A program made the position numbers and the translations under genes. Shown here piece by piece: positions 3,249-15,605 of a DNA stretch of 64,000 nucleotides. Origin of the DNA: Saprospiraceae bacterium (lineage in GTDB: Bacteria > Bacteroidota > Bacteroidia > Chitinophagales > Saprospiraceae); NCBI GenBank assembly GCA_013140975.1, contig JABFRV010000086.1, forward strand, positions 1 to 64,000. Reading direction: 5' to 3'. The notes beneath the pieces are model-generated. The model did not search any database. It was not told where the DNA came from and saw only the letters and a list, made by a program, of their open reading frames with translations. Position 1 is the stretch's first letter. Every line of letters begins with the position of its first letter.

Positions 3249-3893
3249 ATGCAAATGAATAAAAAAATTATTTTGGTAGATGATCACGAAGTTGTTGTTG
3301 AGAGTTTAAGCCTCTTAATCAACGATATGGAAGGTCTTGAAGTGATTTCTGGTGTTACTGACAGTAGAGAAGCAGAAGGATTCATTGAGAAGTTAATGCC
3401 AGACTTACTAATTACTGATTATTCAATGCCATATCTTAATGGAATTCAACTTTGTTTAAAGTTGCGAAGCCGTTGGCCTGATATCAAAATTCTAATGTTG
3501 ACTGTTTCGGAGGATGCAAATCAGATTAAAGAAGCATTCCGTGTAGGAGTATCCGGATACGTAATGAAGAAAGCGAATAAATTAGAATTGGAAAAAGCGA
3601 TTCATACTGTTTTAGCCGGGCAAAGATATTATTCTGACATGGTTCTGGATGAGCTAATGAAGGCTTCAGATGTAATGCAGGAAGAAAAATTAGAACAGGT
3701 TTCTTTAACGCCAAGAGAAATAGAGATAATTAAGTTGATAGCGAAAGAAATGTCAACTTCTGAAATTGCAAAGGATTTATTTATTAGTATTGGAACTGTT
3801 GAAACACATAGGCATAACATATTAAAAAAATTAGGGTTGAAAAATTCTATTGGATTAATCAAATATGCAATTCAAAACAAATTAATCTCCTAA
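3249..3893 (+). CDS. NarL/FixJ-family response regulator
   Basis: A 214-residue two-domain regulator. The receiver domain (about 6-122) has the acidic pocket D11/D12, phosphoacceptor D57 (LLITDYSMP), T85 and K107 (VMKK). The C-terminal LuxR/GerE helix-turn-helix (about 150-212) has the usual LTPREIEIIKLIAKEMSTSEIA pattern and ends in ETHRHNILKKLGLKN. It binds DNA when phosphorylated by its partner, almost certainly the histidine kinase two bases downstream. The preceding MQ before MNKK is weakly supported, so translation could also start at the ATG at 3255. Confidence 0.93.
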   Translation: MQMNKKIILVDDHEVVVESLSLLINDMEGLEVISGVTDSREAEGFIEKLMPDLLITDYSMPYLNGIQLCLKLRSRWPDIKILMLTVSEDANQIKEAFRVGVSGYVMKKANKLELEKAIHTVLAGQRYYSDMVLDELMKASDVMQEEKLEQVSLTPREIEIIKLIAKEMSTSEIAKDLFISIGTVETHRHNILKKLGLKNSIGLIKYAIQNKLIS

Positions 3894-3895
3894 TT

Positions 3896-5728
3896 TTGAT
3901 TAAGAAGGTGCTCAATATTTGTGCGATTCTTATACTTGCATTATGTAATGAACCATTAACGTATGCACAGTCGTTGAAGAGCCTGGTAGAGAAAGTAGAA
4001 ACAGCTGAATCTGTTTCTGAGAAATCTAAAGCCTACATAAATTTATTAAACTTTTGCATATACGCAAGAAATTCAGATACCGAGAAGTATCTTGAATTGC
4101 TAAAGAAGGAAATTAAGAGTAGTTCAAGTGAAATTATGGAAGCTGTTTATAATATGGAGTCAGCATATTATGAAAGAGAAGTGCTTGGAAATTATGAGAA
4201 ATCTTTTCCGAAGTTAATAGAAGCCAGTAAAGTATTTAAAAAATATAATGTAGTTGATGAATTGGCGTATTCGTATAGCCAAATAATGTTGATGACATAT
4301 TGGAATAGGATTGGAGATACAAGTAATTTCAATAGTTCTTATTTATTTAAGGAGTATGTTCTTCCATCCATTGATCTTATCGAGCAAACTAAAGATAGTA
4401 ATGTCAGAATAACAGTTTTGTTGAATATTGGTAGTTATTATTCCGCACTAGCCAATAATACTGACAGTGCATTATTGTATTACCATGAAGCAGAGAAGAA
4501 TATTCACGATAGTATTTTTTCATACTTAAAAATAGTTGTATATGGAAGCTTAGCCATTGTGAATAGTGTTATTGGAGACTTTGATGAAATGCTTAAGTAT
4601 GTCGATAAAAGTGAAAAAGTAGATTTATTTCATTCTGATAATTATGGAAAAGGAAATATTTATCGTTCGATTTCTAAATTTTATCTGGCAGAAGGCCCTC
4701 AAAGGAATGTAGATAAATCGCTGTATTATGCAAAGGAAGCAATGGGGTGTGCATATGCGACAAAGAGCAATACATACATTTCATTGGCGTATTTAAGGCT
4801 GTATTCTACATTCAAGCAAATGAATATAATGGATTCAGCATTATATTATTATGAGAAGCACAAGAAGGTTGAAGATATAATTAATCGGGAGAAATTCAGA
4901 CTAAGTCTTTCTCAAAATGAAGTTATAGTAAAAGATATAGAACTGAAAGAATTAAGCATAGAAAAGCTGAAGGCGGAGAATTATCAGAATAAGTTAATCA
5001 GACAAACGTTATTACTTTCTTTAATTGTAGGTTTTATTTTTACAATCTGGTATTATTATAATTATAAATTAATCAGGAATAAGAACAAGCTGCTGGAGCA
5101 AAAGAACAAAGAGATTCGATCGGCATATTTTGATGGAAAGCAAGAAGAGCAAAAAAGACTTGCTTCGGAGCTTCACGATAATCTGAATACTAAAATAGCT
5201 GCAATGGGTTGGCAATTGGAAGCTATAAGTAAAGAAAAATTAAATGACAGAGATAAGGTGATACTGGAGCGAGTAACTCAAATTTCCAGGGACTTATATA
5301 ATGATGTAAGACTTATTTCTCATAATATTATTCCTACTGAATTATCATCACACGGTCTTGAAGTTGCTGTTCAGAAGTTGGTCAACAGTTTGAATTCACA
5401 AGATCATCTGGTATTTCATTTTATCAGTAATATTAATAAAGAAATCAGTTCCAATGTAAACAATGAAGTTTATAAAATACTATTAGAGTTATGTAATAAT
5501 GTGATTAAGCATTCTAAAGCAAGTGATGCCTGGATATCAATGATTTCAAATGAAAAGCAGGTAACTATAACTGTGGCAGATAATGGTGTAGGGGCAACTC
5601 AAGACAAGACTGGGGAAGGTATAGGATTAAAAAGCATAACATCCAGGGTTGAGTCATTGAATGGATTCATTCGTGTAGTTCCTAATAATAATCCTGGCTA
5701 CTTGACAGAAGTGATAATGCCTATTTAA
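3896..5728 (+). CDS. TPR-containing sensor histidine kinase (HisKA_3 type)
   Basis: 610 residues. A signal peptide (to about 25) leads an exported TPR-like helical sensor region (about 30-340). A coiled stretch and one membrane helix (about 370-390) follow, then the kinase core. The dimerisation/phosphoacceptor box is EEQKRLASELHDNLNTKIAA with His at 427. The ATPase has the N box (LLELCNNVIKHS), G1 (DNGVG) and G2 (GEGIGLKSI). This is the standard partner of NarL-type regulators. The start is TTG, 2 bp after the regulator stop, chosen because it gives the only good signal peptide and fits translational coupling. The ligand is unknown. Confidence 0.9.
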   Translation: MIKKVLNICAILILALCNEPLTYAQSLKSLVEKVETAESVSEKSKAYINLLNFCIYARNSDTEKYLELLKKEIKSSSSEIMEAVYNMESAYYEREVLGNYEKSFPKLIEASKVFKKYNVVDELAYSYSQIMLMTYWNRIGDTSNFNSSYLFKEYVLPSIDLIEQTKDSNVRITVLLNIGSYYSALANNTDSALLYYHEAEKNIHDSIFSYLKIVVYGSLAIVNSVIGDFDEMLKYVDKSEKVDLFHSDNYGKGNIYRSISKFYLAEGPQRNVDKSLYYAKEAMGCAYATKSNTYISLAYLRLYSTFKQMNIMDSALYYYEKHKKVEDIINREKFRLSLSQNEVIVKDIELKELSIEKLKAENYQNKLIRQTLLLSLIVGFIFTIWYYYNYKLIRNKNKLLEQKNKEIRSAYFDGKQEEQKRLASELHDNLNTKIAAMGWQLEAISKEKLNDRDKVILERVTQISRDLYNDVRLISHNIIPTELSSHGLEVAVQKLVNSLNSQDHLVFHFISNINKEISSNVNNEVYKILLELCNNVIKHSKASDAWISMISNEKQVTITVADNGVGATQDKTGEGIGLKSITSRVESLNGFIRVVPNNNPGYLTEVIMPI

Positions 5729-5821: not shown

Positions 5822-6475
5822 TTAAAAGTGATAGAAGAACGATACAGTACCTTGATATTCAGAATAGTCAACTTCAGTTTTTAAATCAAATTCATTTAAA
5901 GTATTGGACTTATAATTACCAAAATTTCCAGATACCTGAAATTGCATTCCTAAATTAGGTTTTATAAAATATTGGATACCTGCTCTTGTATTTAATCCAA
6001 CGCCACTTAGAACATAATCTCCATTATATTCTTCAACATTTCCATCATTATCTGTATCAATATAGAAATAAATATCAATTAAATCAAAGGTAGATGTATT
6101 AATATTGATTCCGGCCCCAAGAAAAGGCCTGATTTTATTTAAGGTTCCATTGAAGAAATATTGGAATCCAAGGTTAATTTTTTTAGCTGTATTTGTTGTA
6201 ACATAATTGCCAGAAGCGTTTTGTTTATTGAATTGGAATTCAGCATAAACATTGAATTTTTGTAAGAATCCATAGGCGGCATTAAGTTGAAAGCCGAATC
6301 CTGAACTATAATTCTTGCTTAGTAAACTTTCATATTCACTATTCCAATTATTATAGCATATTCCGGCCATAACTGAAAAGCCATCTTCATTTGATTTTAC
6401 AGAAAGATCATTTTGTGCAGTTATATCAATTGTGCTAATGAGTAGAACGAAAAAAATACTGCGTAATTTCATCAT
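5822..6475 (-). CDS. Outer-membrane beta-barrel protein
   Basis: 217 residues with a signal peptide (about 1-20, cleaved after ITAQ). The rest alternates polar and hydrophobic residues in strands, with turn-rich loops, and ends in an aromatic (VSFFYHF), as expected of an OMP_b-brl-type barrel. It is the last gene of the minus-strand kinase cluster, 5 bp after the kinase stop, and so is probably co-expressed with the kinase. It could be an outer-membrane partner or merely a structural protein. No enzymatic motif is seen. Confidence 0.8.
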   Translation of the reverse strand: MMKLRSIFFVLLISTIDITAQNDLSVKSNEDGFSVMAGICYNNWNSEYESLLSKNYSSGFGFQLNAAYGFLQKFNVYAEFQFNKQNASGNYVTTNTAKKINLGFQYFFNGTLNKIRPFLGAGININTSTFDLIDIYFYIDTDNDGNVEEYNGDYVLSGVGLNTRAGIQYFIKPNLGMQFQVSGNFGNYKSNTLNEFDLKTEVDYSEYQGTVSFFYHF

Positions 6476-6480
6476 TGATT

Positions 6481-8262
6481 TTAGATTTTAATTGTTTGAG
6501 GAATAATTTTTGGATTCGGGGAGATGCTTAATCCTTTTTGAAATATTATAGGTTCTGTACTACTTCCTTTTTTTCCTAAAGGTATCATTTTTAAATTTAG
6601 CCAAGTCCCATTAATACACTTTACCTTTTCTATTTGAATTTCCAGATACGAACTGGACTTTCCACTCGGTTTGATTTTGGTGATTCTTGCAAAAGCTTCA
6701 GCGCCATTCTGAATTATTAAATCGGAATTGGAATACACAGAAGAAGTCACTTCCATCTTTACCAGGTCATTGATTTTCTTATTGTCTTCTGAGCTTATGG
6801 TCTCTGCAAGTCTTACTCTGACATCCAAAGCAGGAACATTTATTGTTTTGGATTTTTTCTCTTCAACGGGTGATGATTTTTGTTCTTGTAATACAACTTT
6901 TTCAGTAACTACTTGAGTAGGCTTTTCATTATAAATAACAGAAGGTATATTTTGAGAAGCTGGAGTTGAACTTACATCTTTTTTTTGAGATTGAGGTTCT
7001 GATGTAGTAATTATTTTGTTTTTATTGAGTTTAGAACCTGAAGTATTTTCTGTTGAAGATTCAGTATTAGTATTTTTTTGTTGTTTTTCCGAAATAGAAT
7101 TATTGGCTGTTTTAGGGCTATTATTATAGGGTTCGGACTCTGATTGATTACTTTTTTCACTCTTCAAACTCACTACAGTATTCGAAGAAGTCTCATTTGT
7201 AACACTTGGATCTTTTGCTGAAGTGGAATTGGTCTGTACAGTACTAGCCTGGTAATTTATATTGGATTTAGAATTAAAGTAAATTTCTATACCAATAAAT
7301 AGAGTAGCAGCTAAAATTCCTAAGATGGCAATAATTTTGAAAGGAGATCCATTGTCAAATGATAAAATATTAGAAAGTGATCCAAAATTGATTGTAGGAA
7401 TTTTTATTTTGTCAAATGATGGAATTAAAGAAATTGAAGGGCTTGATTCTGAATCTAAATATTCATTAATAATTTCCTGAAACTCCTGTGACGAGGCGGG
7501 TCTGCGCGAAGGATTTTTATGAAGAACTTTATCAAATACATTCAGAAAAGAAGAATCAAAATTATAAATTTCAGGATTCGGGTTGGTGTGCTTTGTGTTA
7601 ATGATCTGATGCAATAATTGAGCTTCAGAATTTGCTTTGAAGGGCATATTTCCTGTGATCATTTCATAGAGCGTGATACCAGTAGCATAGAGATCTGATT
7701 GAATACTTGCCTCTTCACCTTTCAGAAGTTCTGGTGACATGTATTCCATTGTACCTATTATTTTACCGATTCCTGTTAGCTTGGTTGCACCTGAAATCTT
7801 TGCAATACCAAAATCCATGAGCTTCACATCTCCATTGGGTAAAAGCATTATGTTTCCAGGTTTTATATCCCTGTGTAGAATTGTTTTTTGATGAGCATGC
7901 GAAAGACCAGCCAATACCTTATGTATAATTTGTAGTGCTGAGTTAAAGACTATAGTTTTGTTTTGTCTTAAGTAAACATCCAGAGGGGTTCCCTGAATAT
8001 ATTCCATAACTATAAAGTATTCATCACCATCGTGGATAAAATTGTAAATCTGCGCGATGGTTGGGTGTGAAAGTTTTGCAGCTAATCGAGCTTCATTTTT
8101 AAATCTTTCTAAAAATACAGGATCATTCGTTAGATGTGTGTGTAAGGCCTTAATCGCTACGGTTCTTTCAAGTTGCGTATCAGTTGCCTTATATACAGCT
8201 CCCATTCCTCCTTCTCCCAGAAGCTCTTCAATTTGATAATTCTGAATTTTTCGTCCTAGCAT
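6481..8262 (-). CDS. Transmembrane serine/threonine protein kinase
   Basis: 593 residues with a complete Hanks-type kinase domain (about 9-270): G-loop GEGGMG (16-21), ATP lysine K38, HRDIKPGN with D132, DFG at 150-152 and the APE-like SPE segment. A single membrane helix (about 308-328) places the rest in the periplasm. That part is a Ser/Thr/Asn/Gln/Lys-rich low-complexity linker (about 330-470) and a compact C-terminal domain (about 475-590). The domain has a V-x-VRLAETISSEDN start, a pattern seen in exported Bacteroidota domains of unknown role. The gene starts 4 bp after the PP2C stop, so kinase and phosphatase are a coupled pair. Confidence 0.95.
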   Translation of the reverse strand: MLGRKIQNYQIEELLGEGGMGAVYKATDTQLERTVAIKALHTHLTNDPVFLERFKNEARLAAKLSHPTIAQIYNFIHDGDEYFIVMEYIQGTPLDVYLRQNKTIVFNSALQIIHKVLAGLSHAHQKTILHRDIKPGNIMLLPNGDVKLMDFGIAKISGATKLTGIGKIIGTMEYMSPELLKGEEASIQSDLYATGITLYEMITGNMPFKANSEAQLLHQIINTKHTNPNPEIYNFDSSFLNVFDKVLHKNPSRRPASSQEFQEIINEYLDSESSPSISLIPSFDKIKIPTINFGSLSNILSFDNGSPFKIIAILGILAATLFIGIEIYFNSKSNINYQASTVQTNSTSAKDPSVTNETSSNTVVSLKSEKSNQSESEPYNNSPKTANNSISEKQQKNTNTESSTENTSGSKLNKNKIITTSEPQSQKKDVSSTPASQNIPSVIYNEKPTQVVTEKVVLQEQKSSPVEEKKSKTINVPALDVRVRLAETISSEDNKKINDLVKMEVTSSVYSNSDLIIQNGAEAFARITKIKPSGKSSSYLEIQIEKVKCINGTWLNLKMIPLGKKGSSTEPIIFQKGLSISPNPKIIPQTIKI

Positions 8263-8266
8263 TTTT

Positions 8267-9118
8267 TCAATCGAAGCTTTTCGTTTCTTTTAATTCATTC
8301 TGTATCTCTCTTTGGATAAAATCCATTAGTACAAGAGTTATATTATCATGCCCACCTCTTTGTTTTGCTACTCTTACAAGATGATGTGCGGCTTCTGATA
8401 TTGTATTTCGATTTAGTATGTCCTGAATTTCATTTGTTTTAATGTATTCATAAAGACCATCTGAGCAGATAAGTATTTTTTCTATTTCTTGTGGAATCAG
8501 ATCTATTTCAAGAATTTGAAATTCAACTTTCTCTTTGGTTCCCATGGCCCGGGTAAGTATATTTCTTTCCGGATGATTATTGATTTCATCTTCTTTTATC
8601 ATTCCATTTCTGAAAAGATCCATGACATAAGTATGATCTTCGCTGATCTGTTGTAATTGACCATTATTTAAAAAGTAAATTCTTGAATCTCCAACATGAG
8701 CAAGATAAATTTTATTTTTCTTGATTAGAATTGTTGAACAGGTCGTACCCATTCCTTTATTTTTAGAATTTTTATGAGCGCTTCTAAAAATATTTTCATT
8801 TGCTTCAGAAAATGCTTTATTTAATAATTGCTTATCATTTCCTTTTTCTTTGTAGTAAACCCGTTGTATAGTATCTAATGCAATTCCTGCAGCAACTTCG
8901 CCTGAACTATGTCCTCCCATTCCGTCTGCGAGAATTGCTAAAAATCCTTTTTCATTTCTTTCAAGATTTGTAGATGGCCTTATAAATAATGCACGATCTT
9001 CATTGTTGGTTCTAACGTTTCCAACATCGGTTAAGACAATGGCTTTAACATCTAAATAATCCTCAAAGTTTTGAAGGACTTCTTCTTCATTATTAAAAAA
9101 CCACTTTTTCCAGAACAC
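8267..9118 (-). CDS. PP2C-family serine/threonine phosphatase
   Basis: 283 residues of the bacterial Stp/PrpC type. Metal-binding motifs are visible: D41 in NNEDR, ADGMGGH (D65), HVGDSRIY, CSDGLYEY and GGHDNIT. The first 20 residues are a variable extension. It should dephosphorylate targets of the adjacent kinase and possibly the kinase itself. The start is GTG at 9118; no ATG lies nearby in frame. It lies directly downstream of a hairpin terminator at 9137-9170 that separates it from the FHA-protease gene. Confidence 0.95.
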   Translation of the reverse strand: MFWKKWFFNNEEEVLQNFEDYLDVKAIVLTDVGNVRTNNEDRALFIRPSTNLERNEKGFLAILADGMGGHSSGEVAAGIALDTIQRVYYKEKGNDKQLLNKAFSEANENIFRSAHKNSKNKGMGTTCSTILIKKNKIYLAHVGDSRIYFLNNGQLQQISEDHTYVMDLFRNGMIKEDEINNHPERNILTRAMGTKEKVEFQILEIDLIPQEIEKILICSDGLYEYIKTNEIQDILNRNTISEAAHHLVRVAKQRGGHDNITLVLMDFIQREIQNELKETKSFD

Positions 9119-9132
9119 TTTATAGAAATTTT

Positions 9133-9170
9133 AAAAAGGTGTTGACCTCGAAAAGTCTAGATCAACACCT
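9133..9170 (-). terminator. Hairpin terminator between the FHA-protease and PP2C genes
   Basis: A 9-bp perfect stem (AGGTGTTGA at 9137-9145 with TCAACACCT at 9162-9170) encloses a 16-nt loop. On the minus strand the stem is followed by a run of five T. It lies 18 bp past the FHA-protease stop and 19 bp before the PP2C start, so it probably lowers rather than abolishes expression of the phosphatase-kinase part relative to the upstream genes. Confidence 0.75.
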
Positions 9171-9187
9171 AAAAAAATAGTAGAATG

Positions 9188-10837
9188 CTATTTGTTTTTC
9201 AACAATTCTATACCATACTTTATAGGTACCGCATAGCTGATTTTTGTACCTTGATCATCAGATTTACCGGCATAGAAAATCCCTATGACCTGACCCAGTT
9301 CATTGAATAATGGGCCACCGCTATTGCCACCACCTGTAGCATTAACGGTTAACTGAATTTGATCAATTCCTCCAAGTTTTTCACCATGCCCTTTAGAATT
9401 TTCAGGATTATTAGCACCAATAGATCCAGGTGTGACTGTAGCATTTGGAACTGTTGAAATATTATAATTTGCAACAAAAGCAGTTTTGCCTTTCGTTGCA
9501 ACATAGTTATCACCTGCAACACCAGGAAATCCCATAACTGTAATAGATTCTCCAGCTAACGGTGTGATATTTTCAGATGCAAGTGTCACTGGCAAAATTT
9601 CACTTGCCATATCAATTTTAATAATTGCAACATCACTCTTATTGCTTACAGAAACCAATTTCGCTTCTCTTCTTATAGATGAGTTGTTAAAGACAGATCT
9701 TAAATAGACATTTTTACCAACCACAGCATTACCGCCAAAAGTTGCTTGTGAAGGAACCCAAGGATATACTTCTTGATACTGAACATCATTTCGTATTGTC
9801 TTATGGTTTTGATCAATTAAAATTCCCGGAAAGTGAAATTGACTAAAATTATAAGTAACCGACCATCCTGCAGCAACATGCGCATTTGTCATAATTAATC
9901 CACTTGGACTGACTACAAATCCTGAACCTGATCCTTGCCCAAAAATTTCAAGTCCCAAAATATTTGGTGATCTCTTAGTAAGATATGGAACAATTTTTCC
10001 ATTCTCTTCGATGTAAACGGCTCTTGGAACTTGTCTGCCTGTCTCCGGATCATTTACATAAATGAATTCATGTATAAGTGCAGAATTGCTAAAATCAAAC
10101 AGCTGCCATGCCATTTCAATTTGAACAACTTTCTCTTTATTCGTCTCTGCAATCTGTGCAGGTGTAAGTTTTAGTTTGTCCAGTTCTTCTTTTGCTTTTA
10201 GAATAGAGTCTTGTCTTGCTTTCTCTGCTTGTAAGGTAGCCATTTGCAGATCATTTTTCTGCATATTTTTATAGAGGAAAAATCCGGCTGCAGCAAGAAG
10301 TATTCCTACCAAACCAATGGTTAGAATATTTGAATTCTGATTCTTTTTTCGTTCACCTTCTATGACTCTTTCAAATGTTTGTTTGCCAATTCCGGAACTT
10401 CCTGATGAAGAAGCAGTTGCTGATTTCATCTCCACCGTGCTTTTTATGCTATCCATAACTTTGGTGGCTTGCATAAATTCTGCAGGTCTTGGATCAAGAT
10501 CAAAAACAAAAACAGGACCATTGGTACCAAGTTGAATTTCATCACCTGGGTTAAGCTGGGATTGACCTTTTATCCTGACACCATTTACAAGGATACCATT
10601 CGTACTATTGTTATCGTAAATTATGAAGGAATTCGGAGTCTTCCCTTCTTTCTTAATACTACCATGCTCACGGCTAACTGCCACATCTTTATCCTGATCA
10701 AAAATTATTTGACAATGTGACGCTCTTCCAAAGCTAAGGTTAATGTTTTTTTCAAAATCGAATTGTTCAATCTGATTCGCTTTGAATCCTTCCTTATGGA
10801 TAATTAGAAAATTTTTTACTTTATTCATTGGTTGCAT
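9188..10837 (-). CDS. FHA domain-transmembrane-trypsin-like (HtrA-type) protease fusion
   Basis: Residue numbers count from an alternative start at 10876. A cytoplasmic FHA domain (about 22-125) keeps G50-R51, SREH (68-71) and NNSTNG (89-94), which bind phosphothreonine peptides. A membrane helix (about 184-202) and a coiled segment (about 205-235) follow. Then comes an S1-type protease (about 300-560) with H333 (TNAHV), D415 (KSDVAII) and S519 (GGGNSGGPL). No PDZ domain follows. I prefer the ATG at 10837 (or 10828) because 10876 would overlap the upstream gene by 32 bp. The kinase and phosphatase downstream could set FHA ligand phosphorylation. Confidence 0.93.
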   Translation of the reverse strand: MQPMNKVKNFLIIHKEGFKANQIEQFDFEKNINLSFGRASHCQIIFDQDKDVAVSREHGSIKKEGKTPNSFIIYDNNSTNGILVNGVRIKGQSQLNPGDEIQLGTNGPVFVFDLDPRPAEFMQATKVMDSIKSTVEMKSATASSSGSSGIGKQTFERVIEGERKKNQNSNILTIGLVGILLAAAGFFLYKNMQKNDLQMATLQAEKARQDSILKAKEELDKLKLTPAQIAETNKEKVVQIEMAWQLFDFSNSALIHEFIYVNDPETGRQVPRAVYIEENGKIVPYLTKRSPNILGLEIFGQGSGSGFVVSPSGLIMTNAHVAAGWSVTYNFSQFHFPGILIDQNHKTIRNDVQYQEVYPWVPSQATFGGNAVVGKNVYLRSVFNNSSIRREAKLVSVSNKSDVAIIKIDMASEILPVTLASENITPLAGESITVMGFPGVAGDNYVATKGKTAFVANYNISTVPNATVTPGSIGANNPENSKGHGEKLGGIDQIQLTVNATGGGNSGGPLFNELGQVIGIFYAGKSDDQGTKISYAVPIKYGIELLKNK

Positions 10838-10844
10838 TTTTTGT

Positions 10845-12056
10845 TTAATAAATTTTATACATTCTTCTGGCTTCATTAATGTATTCGGAAGCTGAAAAAT
10901 TTGATTCGAAAGAATTTTTTAAGTCTTGAATAGATTTATTTAAGTTTACTGTTTTTATACCCAATTGTGGATCATTATTATATTTTTTCAGGACCTCTTC
11001 ATATTTTTCCAGGTTTTCACTAATCCTGTGTAGTAAAGTTCCAAAACTAATTTTCAAATCTTGCACTTCATCCAATTGGTATCCTATTTGATTTTTCCAC
11101 TCGTGCGATCCTGTTTCTTTAATGTTCTTAAGGTATTGTGAAGTTGTAGTCTTTACAGATTCATAATAATTCATAACTTTTGTTGGGTCATTGGACTTGT
11201 AAAATCGGGATAGGTAATCATTTTTATCCAATTTTAATGTTTGTAAAACATAATCAACATTTTGAGTGAAAATAGTTTTTTGCAATTGCATTTCTTCACT
11301 AATGGATTTCCATTCGGCCTCAACGCCTTGAAGATCATATCTGATCTGTGCTGCTTTAGTTGTAATCAGGAACATTTCTTCACTCTTCTTTTTTAGTTCT
11401 GCTTTACCTGATCCAAGACTTCCGATAAACATTCCAATTGCAGAAAGGACAGGTTGAACCATGGGACCTGCTAAACTTAATTTACCGCTGGCAGCTCCTG
11501 CGGAGTTTAAAATCGTTTGAACAATTCCCAAAATACTTTCTTTGTTCTTATTGCTTGACACATATTGGCTAAAATACTGAAACCATTCCTTATAACCTGG
11601 ATAATCCATCAGATTAGATAATTCGCCAATTTGTGTAAAAGCGATTCTTGTTTGATCAAACAGTTGCAAAGGTTTTAACTGTTTGTCCATTGCAAATAAA
11701 TTAATGACTGCTGTCTGAACATTGGCTTCGAATGTGCTCCATTCAATTTCTTCCAAAAGTTTGTGCCGCAATTCCAAAAGCTCTACTCTTTCGGACATTT
11801 CTGATAGGTTAGAATTATTGGTTGATGAGGATGCGTTATTCTTAGAAACGGATGTTTTATTTTTATTTAAACGAGATTCAACAGTTTTAAGTTTTGTTGT
11901 ATTTTGAGTAGCGGTAGATTTAGACTGTTGATCTATATTTTGAAGAATCGTTTTCTTGATGTTTGAAAATTGTTGCGCTTCACTATTATTCTGCTGACAG
12001 AATGCTACAGAGTCAACGAGAATCAAAAAAATAATAATTTTTAAGAACTTAAACAT
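10845..12056 (-). CDS. Secreted coiled-coil protein of unknown function
   Basis: About 403 residues with a clear signal peptide (MFKFLKIIIFLILVDSVAFC) followed by a Ser/Asn/Thr/Lys-rich region (about 30-80). The remainder is helical and includes a Gly/Ala-rich hydrophobic stretch near 200-220 (SLAGPMVQPVLSAIGMFIGS). That stretch could insert into a membrane or form a helical hairpin. I do not recognise the family. It ends 7 bp before the preferred FHA-protease start, so it is a candidate substrate or partner. An alternative ATG lies at 12065. Confidence 0.75.
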   Translation of the reverse strand: MFKFLKIIIFLILVDSVAFCQQNNSEAQQFSNIKKTILQNIDQQSKSTATQNTTKLKTVESRLNKNKTSVSKNNASSSTNNSNLSEMSERVELLELRHKLLEEIEWSTFEANVQTAVINLFAMDKQLKPLQLFDQTRIAFTQIGELSNLMDYPGYKEWFQYFSQYVSSNKNKESILGIVQTILNSAGAASGKLSLAGPMVQPVLSAIGMFIGSLGSGKAELKKKSEEMFLITTKAAQIRYDLQGVEAEWKSISEEMQLQKTIFTQNVDYVLQTLKLDKNDYLSRFYKSNDPTKVMNYYESVKTTTSQYLKNIKETGSHEWKNQIGYQLDEVQDLKISFGTLLHRISENLEKYEEVLKKYNNDPQLGIKTVNLNKSIQDLKNSFESNFSASEYINEARRMYKIY

Positions 12057-12155
12057 ATCAAACATTTTAAAAAGAATAACGCTACAAATTTCGCTTTGTC
12101 ACTGTCTATTTTCTAATACAGACATCTATATTTTAACTATAGGTTTTCCTGTATA

Positions 12156-13439
12156 TTATCCTTTAATTGCCCAAAAATCTCCATTTTTAACTAGATTTCT
12201 TTTCTCCGGAGGTTCATTTCTTTCAAAAAGAGCCCTGATGTCGTCTATCACATTGGTCGATGAAACAAAGTAATTATGATTAAATAAATCGCCTTTGATA
12301 ACATTACTTGCATCTACAGTGTAAAAGCCGGCTATAGATTTATTCACTTTGCCAAGTCTTATATATCCATTCAGAATTTCTGAAGCATTGAGTGCCCTGT
12401 CATCTTTAGCAGTATAAATCGTATATCGTGTTGCTAAATTTTTGATTTTTGGGGCTATGTCTCTCTCAAAAATGGCTGCGTCAATATCCGGGGCAGCCAA
12501 TATGACTTGATTAAATTTAATTTTACTATTTTCTTCTGCAATGGATTTTAATGCTAGTGTTAGAACGCGGTTGCCCATGCTGTGTGCAACCATATGAATC
12601 TTTGTGGGTTTCAAATTCTTAATAATAGTCTGTACGTAATTTTTAAATGCATAATAAGAATACTCAGCATTTGTCCCATCTTTTATATAGTCTGTTGCGC
12701 TCCCATTGGATGACCAGCTGTAATATAATGCTAATCCTTTAAATCCTAAATCATAGTATAGCTGTGCTGTTCTTTTCGCTCCTTCAGAGAACGTAGAATT
12801 AAAACCATGAATAAAAATAAAGATATCTTTATTGCTAGAGTTTTTAAGTGTAGAAGACAACGAAAGCATATAATTGTCTTCCTGGAAAGTTTCAATGCTT
12901 CTTATAAGTACAAATTTATCAGGTTCATATTTGGATTTTACCCTCAACATATTTGGCAATTCCAGATTGCCTCTTCTATGTGATTTTGGAATACTGACAT
13001 GCATGAGCCCATAATCAAGTACATCTTTGGTTGAGCGGCTATTTCCATAATAACTTTCTAAAGTATTTTCTTTTTTGGATCGGTCCGTCGCATAATAAAC
13101 AGGTACAAGATAAAAATCGTTATATTGGTTAGTATCAATTTCCGGTAGCGGAAATTTAGGAGGCGCTTCTTTTTTCTTTACACCTGTTCCTTTTTTTTTG
13201 GGATAAGCATAAGGATCATGAGAATTGATTCGCGTATTGTTTTTAGAATACTGAGGAATGATAAGATCTGAAATAAAAAACTCTTTGCGAGCATTTGAGT
13301 CAATATACGGCTTTTTAAACTTGTGAGTGTCTTGTGGGCTTACGTTGTTGATTTTCTTTACCAGTAATTTTCCATCGTAGGTATTAAATAGTACGAAACA
13401 AAAAATCGGGAAAAGAAGAAAAATTTTAAATATACTCAT
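12156..13439 (-). CDS. Exported alpha/beta hydrolase of the DUF900 type
   Basis: 427 residues with an N-terminal signal or anchor (about 1-20). A Lys/Pro-rich stretch precedes a hydrolase domain (about 108-400). Key motifs are PVYYATDRS, the oxyanion-type IFIHGFNSTF (about 207-216) and the nucleophile elbow AHSMGN with S287. The acid and histidine should lie in the following region (PDIDAAIFERD and later). This matches the esterase/lipase-like DUF900 family, whose natural substrates are unknown. Its start overlaps the upstream stop by 4 bp (ATGA), and it is followed by an unexplained 90-100 bp gap. Confidence 0.88.
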   Translation of the reverse strand: MSIFKIFLLFPIFCFVLFNTYDGKLLVKKINNVSPQDTHKFKKPYIDSNARKEFFISDLIIPQYSKNNTRINSHDPYAYPKKKGTGVKKKEAPPKFPLPEIDTNQYNDFYLVPVYYATDRSKKENTLESYYGNSRSTKDVLDYGLMHVSIPKSHRRGNLELPNMLRVKSKYEPDKFVLIRSIETFQEDNYMLSLSSTLKNSSNKDIFIFIHGFNSTFSEGAKRTAQLYYDLGFKGLALYYSWSSNGSATDYIKDGTNAEYSYYAFKNYVQTIIKNLKPTKIHMVAHSMGNRVLTLALKSIAEENSKIKFNQVILAAPDIDAAIFERDIAPKIKNLATRYTIYTAKDDRALNASEILNGYIRLGKVNKSIAGFYTVDASNVIKGDLFNHNYFVSSTNVIDDIRALFERNEPPEKRNLVKNGDFWAIKG

Positions 13440-14170
13440 TTGTCTTTCGGCTTTGGGTAAGATAAATATATTTCCGTAAGATTGTTTAGCTGAAGTAATT
13501 CAAAGTCAGATATGATCTGATTATGCTCAGAAATAGTTTTATTAATATTTGGACTATCTTGCTCGGATCTGGAAAATAAATTCATAAATTCACAATCACG
13601 ATTGATAAAGAGATTGTAATAAATATTGTTCTTTATTTCTTTTTTTGTAAATAAAGCGATACTTCGCAAAGAGCACACCTTATATTTTTTGGATACTGGA
13701 ATAACCGTTGTTCTTGTATCTGAATCACCGGCCTCAAGCCAATGTTGAGAAATTAAGTTGCCGCAGGCTAAGGTTTTTGCTATAGAAACAACATGTTCTG
13801 AGTGGAGGTCTAATTTTTCATCACGAATGCTGGCCCATTGATTTTCTTTGATAGGATAATCAAATGATATAGAGGTGTCCAGATCTGTTCCGCTCTCATA
13901 CTTTAATCCTTGCAGATCATATGTAAACTTTGCGATGTTTACCCTTCTTTGAGAGTTATTGCTGAGGTGAAGCTTTATTTCCAGAAAATAATTATCAGCT
14001 TCTTCTCCAGTTATTTTTAGCTCATGTTTCACTTGAAGATAAGGAGGTAAGCTTTGGGGAATCAGATATCCTTCATAAATAAATTTCCAAAAAGCGATTA
14101 AAGCACCAAAAATTATAGCACCGGAATCCACAAAAGGTTTTATTCGCGAATATCTTTCTGCAATACTCAC
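13436..14170 (-). CDS. Single-pass membrane protein of unknown function
   Basis: 244 residues. One hydrophobic segment near the N terminus (about 15-35, SGAIIFGALIAFWKFIYEG) is followed by a mixed alpha/beta region with a beta-sandwich-like pattern (YFLEIKLHLSNNSQRRVNIAKF). There is no recognisable catalytic motif. It overlaps both neighbours by 4 bp (ATGA at each end), so it is translated together with the small basic protein and the hydrolase. Confidence 0.75.
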   Translation of the reverse strand: MSIAERYSRIKPFVDSGAIIFGALIAFWKFIYEGYLIPQSLPPYLQVKHELKITGEEADNYFLEIKLHLSNNSQRRVNIAKFTYDLQGLKYESGTDLDTSISFDYPIKENQWASIRDEKLDLHSEHVVSIAKTLACGNLISQHWLEAGDSDTRTTVIPVSKKYKVCSLRSIALFTKKEIKNNIYYNLFINRDCEFMNLFSRSEQDSPNINKTISEHNQIISDFELLQLNNLTEIYLSYPKPKDK

Positions 14171-14427
14171 TTCTTTTTGTTTTTTGTTTTAGCTTTCTTT
14201 GCTGAAGGTTTTGTACTTTTTTTTGTAGTATCTGAAAGAATCAAATTCGGTGATTCAGTTGTCTTGCTGTATGCTTTAGGATCTTTGTTATTAGATACTT
14301 TTGGTTTAGGTTTTTCTGAAGCAGTTTTTTTTGGCTTTTCCTGTTGGCTTATATGATACACAGGGTTGCATTCTCCTTTATAAACAATGAAAGATAGAAT
14401 GCCAATAACAATTAATTGACGACACAT
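14167..14427 (-). CDS. Small secreted lysine-rich protein
   Basis: 86 residues: a signal peptide (about 1-20, ending GECN) followed by a low-complexity tail rich in Lys, Pro, Ser and Thr that ends in a run of lysines. It opens the minus-strand cluster and its stop overlaps the next start. The Ser/Thr-rich basic tail could interact with membranes or nucleic acid, or simply be disordered. Family unknown; short length lowers confidence, but position and coupling support a real gene. Confidence 0.65.
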   Translation of the reverse strand: MCRQLIVIGILSFIVYKGECNPVYHISQQEKPKKTASEKPKPKVSNNKDPKAYSKTTESPNLILSDTTKKSTKPSAKKAKTKNKKK

Positions 14428-14443
14428 TACTACTATTTTGGTA

Positions 14444-14476
14444 CAAAAATATTATATAATCTTACTCAATGCTCAA
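14444..14476 (-). promoter_or_regulatory. Probable promoter of the kinase/FHA-protease cluster
   Basis: On the minus strand, TATTTTTG (14444-14451) fits the Bacteroidota -7 box TAnnTTTG exactly. TTG (14474-14476) lies 22 bp further upstream as a possible -33 element. Transcription would begin about 10 nt before the start codon at 14427. Confidence 0.5.
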
Positions 14477-14933: not shown

Positions 14934-15605
14934 TTAGTTGCAGCGATCTTTCAAGGCAATTAGTTCTTCTTTAGAGTTAACTGTTACAGTTGTTCCATCT
15001 TCTTTTAAAGTTACAGTTAAAGGAAACTTTAAATGAGGTCTTGAAGTAGGTTTGCCGGGATTGGCTTCTCTCCATGCTTTGATAGCAGCTCTGAAATCTT
15101 CTTTTTTAGCAATTGTTACTTCAGAATTATCAGGAAGTATCAATGTTACCGGATACACCAATTCAAAACAAGCTAAACCTCTTCCAATATGTCCTCCCGG
15201 ACCTCTTCCAGGTCTGCCTGGGCACTCTTTTCTGAGAGAAATTAGTTCTTCTTTGCTAGTGACAGTTACTGTTGTACCATCTTTTTTCAATACATCAATA
15301 GGGAATACAAATTCTGGTCTTCCATCAGCTTTTGTGTGTGCTTTTCTCCATTCGCGTAAAGCCGATCCCAATTCTTCATAGGATGCATACGTTCCTGATG
15401 TTCCATCTGGGAAAGAAATTGTAACTGGAAATACCAATTCAAAACATCCAAGTTTTCCTAATCCACAATCTCCCTGTAGTTGATATACGGAATTGTTAAC
15501 AAAGTTTTCTACTTCAGTTGAACTTGAATCATCTTTCTGACAAGATGTAAATCCAATTAATACTATGGCGTAAAGTGCCATTCCCTTTAAAATCCAATTT
15601 TTCAT
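14934..15605 (-). CDS. Lipoprotein with two tandem copies of one domain
   Basis: 223 residues. A lipoprotein signal peptide (lipobox GFTSC, Cys about 22) is followed by two homologous segments of about 75 residues: CFELVFPVTISFPDG...SKEELISLRKEC and CFELVYPVTLILPD...SKEELIALKDRC. Each pairs a beta-rich half with a short helix, and each is bounded by cysteines. A glycine/proline/arginine linker (about 128-142) separates them. I know of similar repeated modules in Bacteroidota lipoproteins but no established function. It is monocistronic, with its own terminator. Confidence 0.8.
   Translation of the reverse strand: MKNWILKGMALYAIVLIGFTSCQKDDSSSTEVENFVNNSVYQLQGDCGLGKLGCFELVFPVTISFPDGTSGTYASYEELGSALREWRKAHTKADGRPEFVFPIDVLKKDGTTVTVTSKEELISLRKECPGRPGRGPGGHIGRGLACFELVYPVTLILPDNSEVTIAKKEDFRAAIKAWREANPGKPTSRPHLKFPLTVTLKEDGTTVTVNSKEELIALKDRCN

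Follow-up and report, generated by a model that had tools for sequence, protein, structure and literature searches.

A recurring kinase, PP2C and FHA-protease gene module of Bacteroidota with a proposed role in periplasmic proteolysis

Closest described systems and the Saprospiraceae locus

The Ser/Thr kinases of bacteria are best known for detecting external signals and for acting on targets within the cytoplasm. In signalling of the PknB/Stk1 type, a Hanks-type kinase with a single transmembrane (TM) segment is accompanied by a Stp1-type phosphatase and by FHA readers such as GarA/OdhI. Here, we analyzed a cluster of eight minus-strand genes at positions 5822-14427 of a 64,000-nucleotide stretch, hereafter the window, from the genome of a Saprospiraceae bacterium (contig JABFRV010000086.1; 3.97 Mb in 196 contigs). 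All eight open reading frames proved to be open, and four of them form a real recurring module, which we call the core, comprising an FHA-TM-protease, a PP2C phosphatase, a Ser/Thr kinase and, often, an outer-membrane barrel, as judged from gene linkage across genomes.

The core shares with PknB/Stk1 signalling the single-TM Hanks-type kinase, the Stp1-type PP2C and an FHA phosphothreonine reader. However, its kinase carries no PASTA domains, for which Pfam gave no match, the PknB/Stk1 model NF033483 scored 313 against a cut-off of 450 with the match confined to residues 9-273, and its FHA reader forms part of a transmembrane protease. A membrane-anchored periplasmic HtrA-type domain with a triad is also found in DegS and other HtrA proteins, whereas the core protease has an added cytoplasmic FHA domain, lacks a PDZ domain (no Pfam match was found, and the protein ends at the protease domain) and scores far below the cut-off of the DegS-family models. 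VirB10 and TrbI of type IV secretion resemble the core kinase in their one inner-membrane TM segment, long linker and C-terminal domain of the same predicted fold, but the core kinase has a cytoplasmic kinase domain, and its C-terminal domain spans ~115 rather than ~185 residues. A kinase, a PP2C and an FHA protein also occur together in the PpkA-PppA-Fha circuit of type VI secretion, although the TagH model reached only 26.3 against a cut-off of 120.25, and no secretion genes were recognised in the mapped core neighbourhoods.

The kinase-kinase-phosphatase (KKP) module combines a PP2C, one or two kinases and an FHA domain; there, FHA and CSD are fused to the kinases, the PP2C is followed by two short kinases and, in the available part of its description, no transmembrane protease appears (PMC11341870). 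By contrast, the window holds one kinase, and its FHA domain is fused to the protease. The KKP work and a survey of conflict systems (PMC7159879) are the nearest literature, and in the portions available neither describes the core gene set. No published description of this set was found in the open-licence full-text literature, which is no proof of novelty.

Distribution and composition of the core

The distribution of the core was determined with the FHA-protease as the sole query; kinase-PP2C pairs with a VirB10-like domain but without this protein lie outside the survey. The 199 genomes of the order gave five full-length matches, the window's own among them, and the GTDB species genomes gave five additional distinct loci: one in Terrimonas, two in Aequorivita and one each in metagenome-assembled genomes (MAGs) of Bacteroidota and Sphingobacteriales. 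Three more came from 395 genomes of the phylum, searched with an alignment of the FHA domain and linker, for a total of 13 distinct orthologues; Terrimonas ferruginea and Aequorivita todarodis are culturable carriers. One further locus (L045), apparently the same contig as in genome G102 given its equal length and position, was left out of the count, and two FHA loci from Gemmatimonadota (L047 and L055) were excluded as too distant. The module is rare, being present in ~2% of the sampled genomes, and the FHA-protease orthologues are 35-43% identical to the window protein.

Gene maps made by blastp against the window proteins placed a PP2C and a kinase in the same short same-strand cluster as the FHA-protease in 13 of 13 loci, spread over several Bacteroidota families; the co-occurrence of these three genes, which the sequence-only reading of the window had proposed as a check, was thus borne out. 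Their order is protease, PP2C, kinase, with a second kinase between protease and PP2C at three loci (L036, L039 and L154). The pairwise distances of protease, kinase and PP2C are correlated (Mantel r 0.79-0.94; none of 2000 permutations was as high), so the three proteins have travelled together, which does not imply that they interact. Within the window's own genome, only three FHA domains and four kinase domains are present, one of each in this cluster; because these domains are so few, the cluster is more than chance.

The protease gene (9188-10876, minus strand) encodes 562 amino acids as called, although, judging by the orthologues, translation probably starts at 10837 or 10825 rather than at 10876. 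Its product joins an FHA domain (10735-10526; Pfam 5.8e-16), a TM segment (~10327-10271) and a protease domain (~9937-9203; Trypsin_2 5e-18), confirming the FHA-transmembrane-protease fusion that had been read from the sequence. The trypsin label can be refined, since profile and fold searches led to HtrA proteases, including DegS without its PDZ domain, and the domain has the His-Asp-Ser triad of the HtrA/Deg class. The triad residues H333, D415 and S519 are invariant across the 13 sequences, as are the FHA residues G50, R51, S68, R69, H71, N93 and G94, which make up the Gly-Arg, Ser-Arg-x-His and Asn-Gly pattern; these residues fit a role as phosphothreonine reader, and binding is predicted. 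A hydropathy scan found one TM segment, at residues 184-202, and an AlphaFold2 model (mean pLDDT 76) placed the FHA domain, a very low-confidence stretch at ~137-189 and a long TM-bearing helix ahead of the protease.

Within the linker modelled as disordered lies T138 (10465-10463), which is invariant in all 13 orthologues and kept in the variant locus L046 described below, in a context of mostly one basic and then two hydrophobic residues. It is the leading candidate phosphosite of the FHA-protease and would make the core comparable with a GarA-type switch, in which a protein's own phosphothreonine is bound by its own FHA domain. T167 (10378-10376), invariant together with G164 and K165 in the 13 orthologues only, is also a candidate, but it was dropped as a universal site because L046 lacks it.

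The kinase gene (6481-8262, minus strand) encodes a cytoplasmic kinase domain (8238-7483; Pkinase 3e-59), a TM segment (~7335-7279), a linker of ~147 residues and a VirB10/TrbI-like periplasmic domain (6837-6493). Every kinase compared has one TM segment and, in the ten measured, a linker of 101-147 residues, save that of L039 with 240; the C-terminal domain is conserved. Its model reached a pLDDT of 87. The best Foldseek matches were of the VirB10 type (best E 0.0095, none below E 0.001), and VIA-align, run on Foldseek's own list, gave Z 10.0 to 6.2 for VirB10-type chains against 3.8 for the next fold. Sequence comparison was less clear-cut: the Pfam TrbI model remained below its cut-off (best E 0.0099, in 2 of 11 members), TraM matched weakly in two, and a profile comparison with other Bacteroidota TrbI proteins gave E 7e-4 with a probability of only 27%, against E 0.35-0.66 for shuffled and reversed controls. 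TrbI was found neither in 61 relatives nor in the window's own genome, and a PDB sequence search with the kinase domain as query gave no significant match. The modelled periplasmic domain points to a VirB10 fold, for which common ancestry with VirB10/TrbI is likely, not proven.

The PP2C gene (8267-9118, minus strand; PP2C 2.9e-20) begins at a GTG codon and belongs to the Stp1/IreP type (NF033484, 253.6 bits against a cut-off of 230). Its product starts with an FWKKWFF peptide, and a comparable aromatic-basic N-terminus (for example MFWKK or MRFPWQKK) is found in 14 of 15 core PP2Cs but absent from all 14 PP2Cs compared from other FHA clusters; a possible membrane tether is the simplest reading of this feature. 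In kinase, PP2C and protease alike, the motif residues are intact.

The fourth member, a putative outer-membrane beta-barrel protein (5822-6475, minus strand), follows the kinase in 7 of the 13 cores. The barrel assignment made from the sequence holds only loosely in the window itself, where the match to PF13505 is weak (25.9 bits against a cut-off of 28.7), and is better founded in several orthologues, three of the seven scanned relatives lying above that cut-off. The six cores without a barrel form one fully supported branch of the protease tree, so that a single gain or loss of the barrel gene suffices.

Local additions, neighbouring genes and related loci

The sequence-only reading had grouped all eight genes into one system, an idea that we rejected on the distribution of the remaining four, which look like local additions outside the core: they adjoin none of the 12 other cores, and homologues of two of them, CC406 and the DUF900 protein, occur without it, the pattern which that reading had itself named as the mark of an incidental grouping. 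CC406 (10845-12065, minus strand), a predicted exported coiled-coil-like protein, had been suggested as substrate or partner of the protease, for which gene position is the sole support. It has matches in 3 of 296 genomes, never beside a core elsewhere, and in the two other genomes no match to kinase, PP2C, FHA-protease or DUF900 lies within 20 kb around it. The DUF900 alpha/beta hydrolase (12156-13439, minus strand; PF05990 5e-49), which has an N-terminal hydrophobic segment, has homologues in 17 of 247 genomes, chiefly of one distant family. U244 (13436-14170, minus strand), a single-TM protein of unknown function, has no match beyond its own genome among 296 genomes. K86 (14167-14427, minus strand) is lysine-rich as described, but its description as a secreted peptide gained no support, no hydrophobic segment having passed the scan; it has no match in the mapped core loci. 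Scans of the window proteins against Pfam, NCBIfam and PADLOC gave no convincing family match for CC406, U244 or K86, and a PHROGs search yielded nothing useful.

Overlaps and short gaps between the genes suggest at least partial co-transcription and make a local role of the four additions possible, though unsupported. Upstream of K86, a pattern scan found a loose match to a Bacteroidota-type promoter (TTGA-N-TATTTTTG; 14444-14476, minus strand), which is weak, as the minus strand of the window holds 46 instances of the -7 motif by itself. Between protease and PP2C lies a terminator-like hairpin (9170-9137, minus strand) of 12 pairs followed by a U-run, with a fold energy z of -4.64 and no shuffled sequence as stable, which a consensus terminator scan did not flag. 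It was rejected as a conserved element: a hairpin is stable in the window, L040, L043 and L044 and not in L041, L042, L036, L039 or L154, and those of L040, L043 and L044 differ in sequence and form, the U-run being confined to the window. Just upstream of the cluster, 14934-15605 encodes a lipoprotein-like protein with two similar halves.

On the plus strand, a LuxR-type response regulator (3249-3893) and its paired histidine kinase (3896-5728; HisKA_3 and HATPase_c) may represent an associated regulator. Orthologues of the regulator, 51% and 56% identical, occur near the core in G045 and G376, whereas its best paralogue in its own genome is 35% identical; the pair directly follows the barrel in G045 and lies ~9 kb from the protease gene in G376. 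As it is linked to the core in 3 of the 13 loci and absent near the others, we rejected it as a core member.

Two relatives depart from the core in their effector. In L046 (Leadbetterella MAG, 9974-11668), a similar FHA domain and TM segment carry a periplasmic region of another kind, which looks by eye like a transglutaminase-type core but has no Pfam family match; PP2C, kinase and barrel are in place, together with one extra gene. In the distant genome of L157 (6267-10486), an FHA-only protein of 136 residues is followed by PP2C, kinase and barrel in the same order.

More distant FHA-trypsin/PP2C/kinase clusters are present in other genomes. The window's own genome carries one on contig C69 (L004, 3459-11219), which holds two further FHA and two further kinase domains of the genome: a zinc-ribbon/FHA protein, two kinases, a different FHA-TM-trypsin protein, an exported protein of unknown function and a PP2C with a TM segment. 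It and its relatives, seen in G165, G451, G409 and G090, resemble the core in combining an FHA-TM-trypsin protein with kinases, here two, and a PP2C, but differ in their distant sequences, zinc-ribbon/FHA protein and other genes. At L161 (4547-20000), FHA, PP2C and kinase genes lie near a protein judged PAAR-like by eye, which hints at a connection to a contractile secretion system at that locus.

A proposed membrane phospho-switch and its alternatives

We propose that the core acts as a membrane phospho-switch controlling periplasmic proteolysis, a reading to which we give an even chance of being correct. It rests on intact domains, predicted topology, conserved linkage, a conserved threonine and a modelled domain fold; we infer the signal, the phosphorylated residue, binding by the FHA domain, which way control runs, the substrate and the contact with the barrel. 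The predicted topology, with one TM segment between FHA and protease and one between kinase and C-terminal domain, fits phosphorylation in the cytoplasm that acts on a protease in the periplasm. The kinase would be anchored in the inner membrane, its catalytic domain facing the cytoplasm and the long linker carrying the VirB10-like domain into the periplasm, where it might touch the outer membrane by way of the adjacent barrel. Changes in the envelope would alter the kinase, which would phosphorylate both itself and the FHA-protease, the latter in its cytoplasmic linker, with T138 as the best candidate site. The phosphothreonine, whether it sits on the kinase or in a protease linker, would be bound by the FHA domain, and this binding would gather or rearrange the protease, whose HtrA-type domain would then cut periplasmic targets. 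The switch would be reset by the PP2C, whose aromatic-basic N-terminus probably keeps it at the membrane.

Several observations weigh against this proposal. The hairpin may split transcription of protease and PP2C in the window, so that the eight genes may not be one transcript and these two proteins may be made in different amounts. The barrel is absent from 6 of the 13 cores and therefore cannot be essential everywhere, and the protease domain is missing in L046 and L157. Moreover, the pattern of the PP2C N-terminus was written after the core sequences had been seen and was not blind, and the 13 loci share ancestry, the two from Aequorivita being close, hence they are not independent samples.

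An extended form of the phospho-switch, which we regard as tentative and on balance doubtful, holds that the kinase spans the whole envelope, reads the outer membrane via its VirB10-like domain and the barrel, and controls exchangeable periplasmic effectors, an HtrA protease or another enzyme-like domain, through membrane-tethered FHA domains. VirB10 connects the inner and outer membranes (PMC6120205), and in the core kinase the linker could be long enough to reach the outer membrane; together with the neighbouring barrel, it suggests a possible contact there.

The same parts and topology would also serve a protease that acts on the kinase itself, the FHA domain docking on the autophosphorylated kinase and the linker or VirB10-like domain being trimmed to end the signal, a feedback by shedding. 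A long exposed linker is present in every kinase measured, and phosphothreonine on the kinase alone would suffice for FHA; however, this scheme does not require the invariant threonine in the protease's own linker, and L157 has an FHA domain without a protease, leaving it unlikely in our view. Kinase-PP2C pairs commonly have many cytoplasmic targets, and a response regulator pair is linked to three loci; the three proteins might form a complex that acts chiefly through phosphorylation in the cytoplasm, with the protease as a minor quality-control partner. The invariance of the triad argues instead for a selected activity, while the presence of the protease in all 13 loci follows from the search design, and we consider this alternative quite improbable.

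The exchangeable effector domain of L046, the patchy distribution and the resemblance of the kinase to the PADLOC PD-T4-6 models would suit a role in antiphage defence or conflict, with a toxic protease set free on phosphorylation, by analogy with kinase-phosphatase defence systems. This we judge very unlikely, as the PADLOC matches are generic to the kinase fold, the effector is predicted to be periplasmic and the window surroundings consist of chromosomal housekeeping-type genes. They give no support for a defence island, and carriage on a plasmid was discarded in the absence of any plasmid match. PP2C and kinase genes are frequently adjacent in bacteria, and such a common pair might lie beside an FHA protease by accident, but linkage in 13 of 13 loci from divergent genomes, correlated divergence and shared special features bring that explanation close to refuted.

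Collectively, the core is a new form of kinase-phosphatase-FHA signalling with a periplasmic protease as its likely output, and the mechanism proposed for it from sequence and models is plausible. The module has the parts needed to relay information outward, phosphorylation on one side of the inner membrane leading to proteolysis in the periplasm, and its invariant T138 and small gene set make it directly testable. If the proposal is true, it would represent a further design, besides that of the DegS-RseA type, for coupling the state of the envelope to proteolysis, and in its VirB10-like domain the kinase would have put a fold of secretion machinery to unexpected use.

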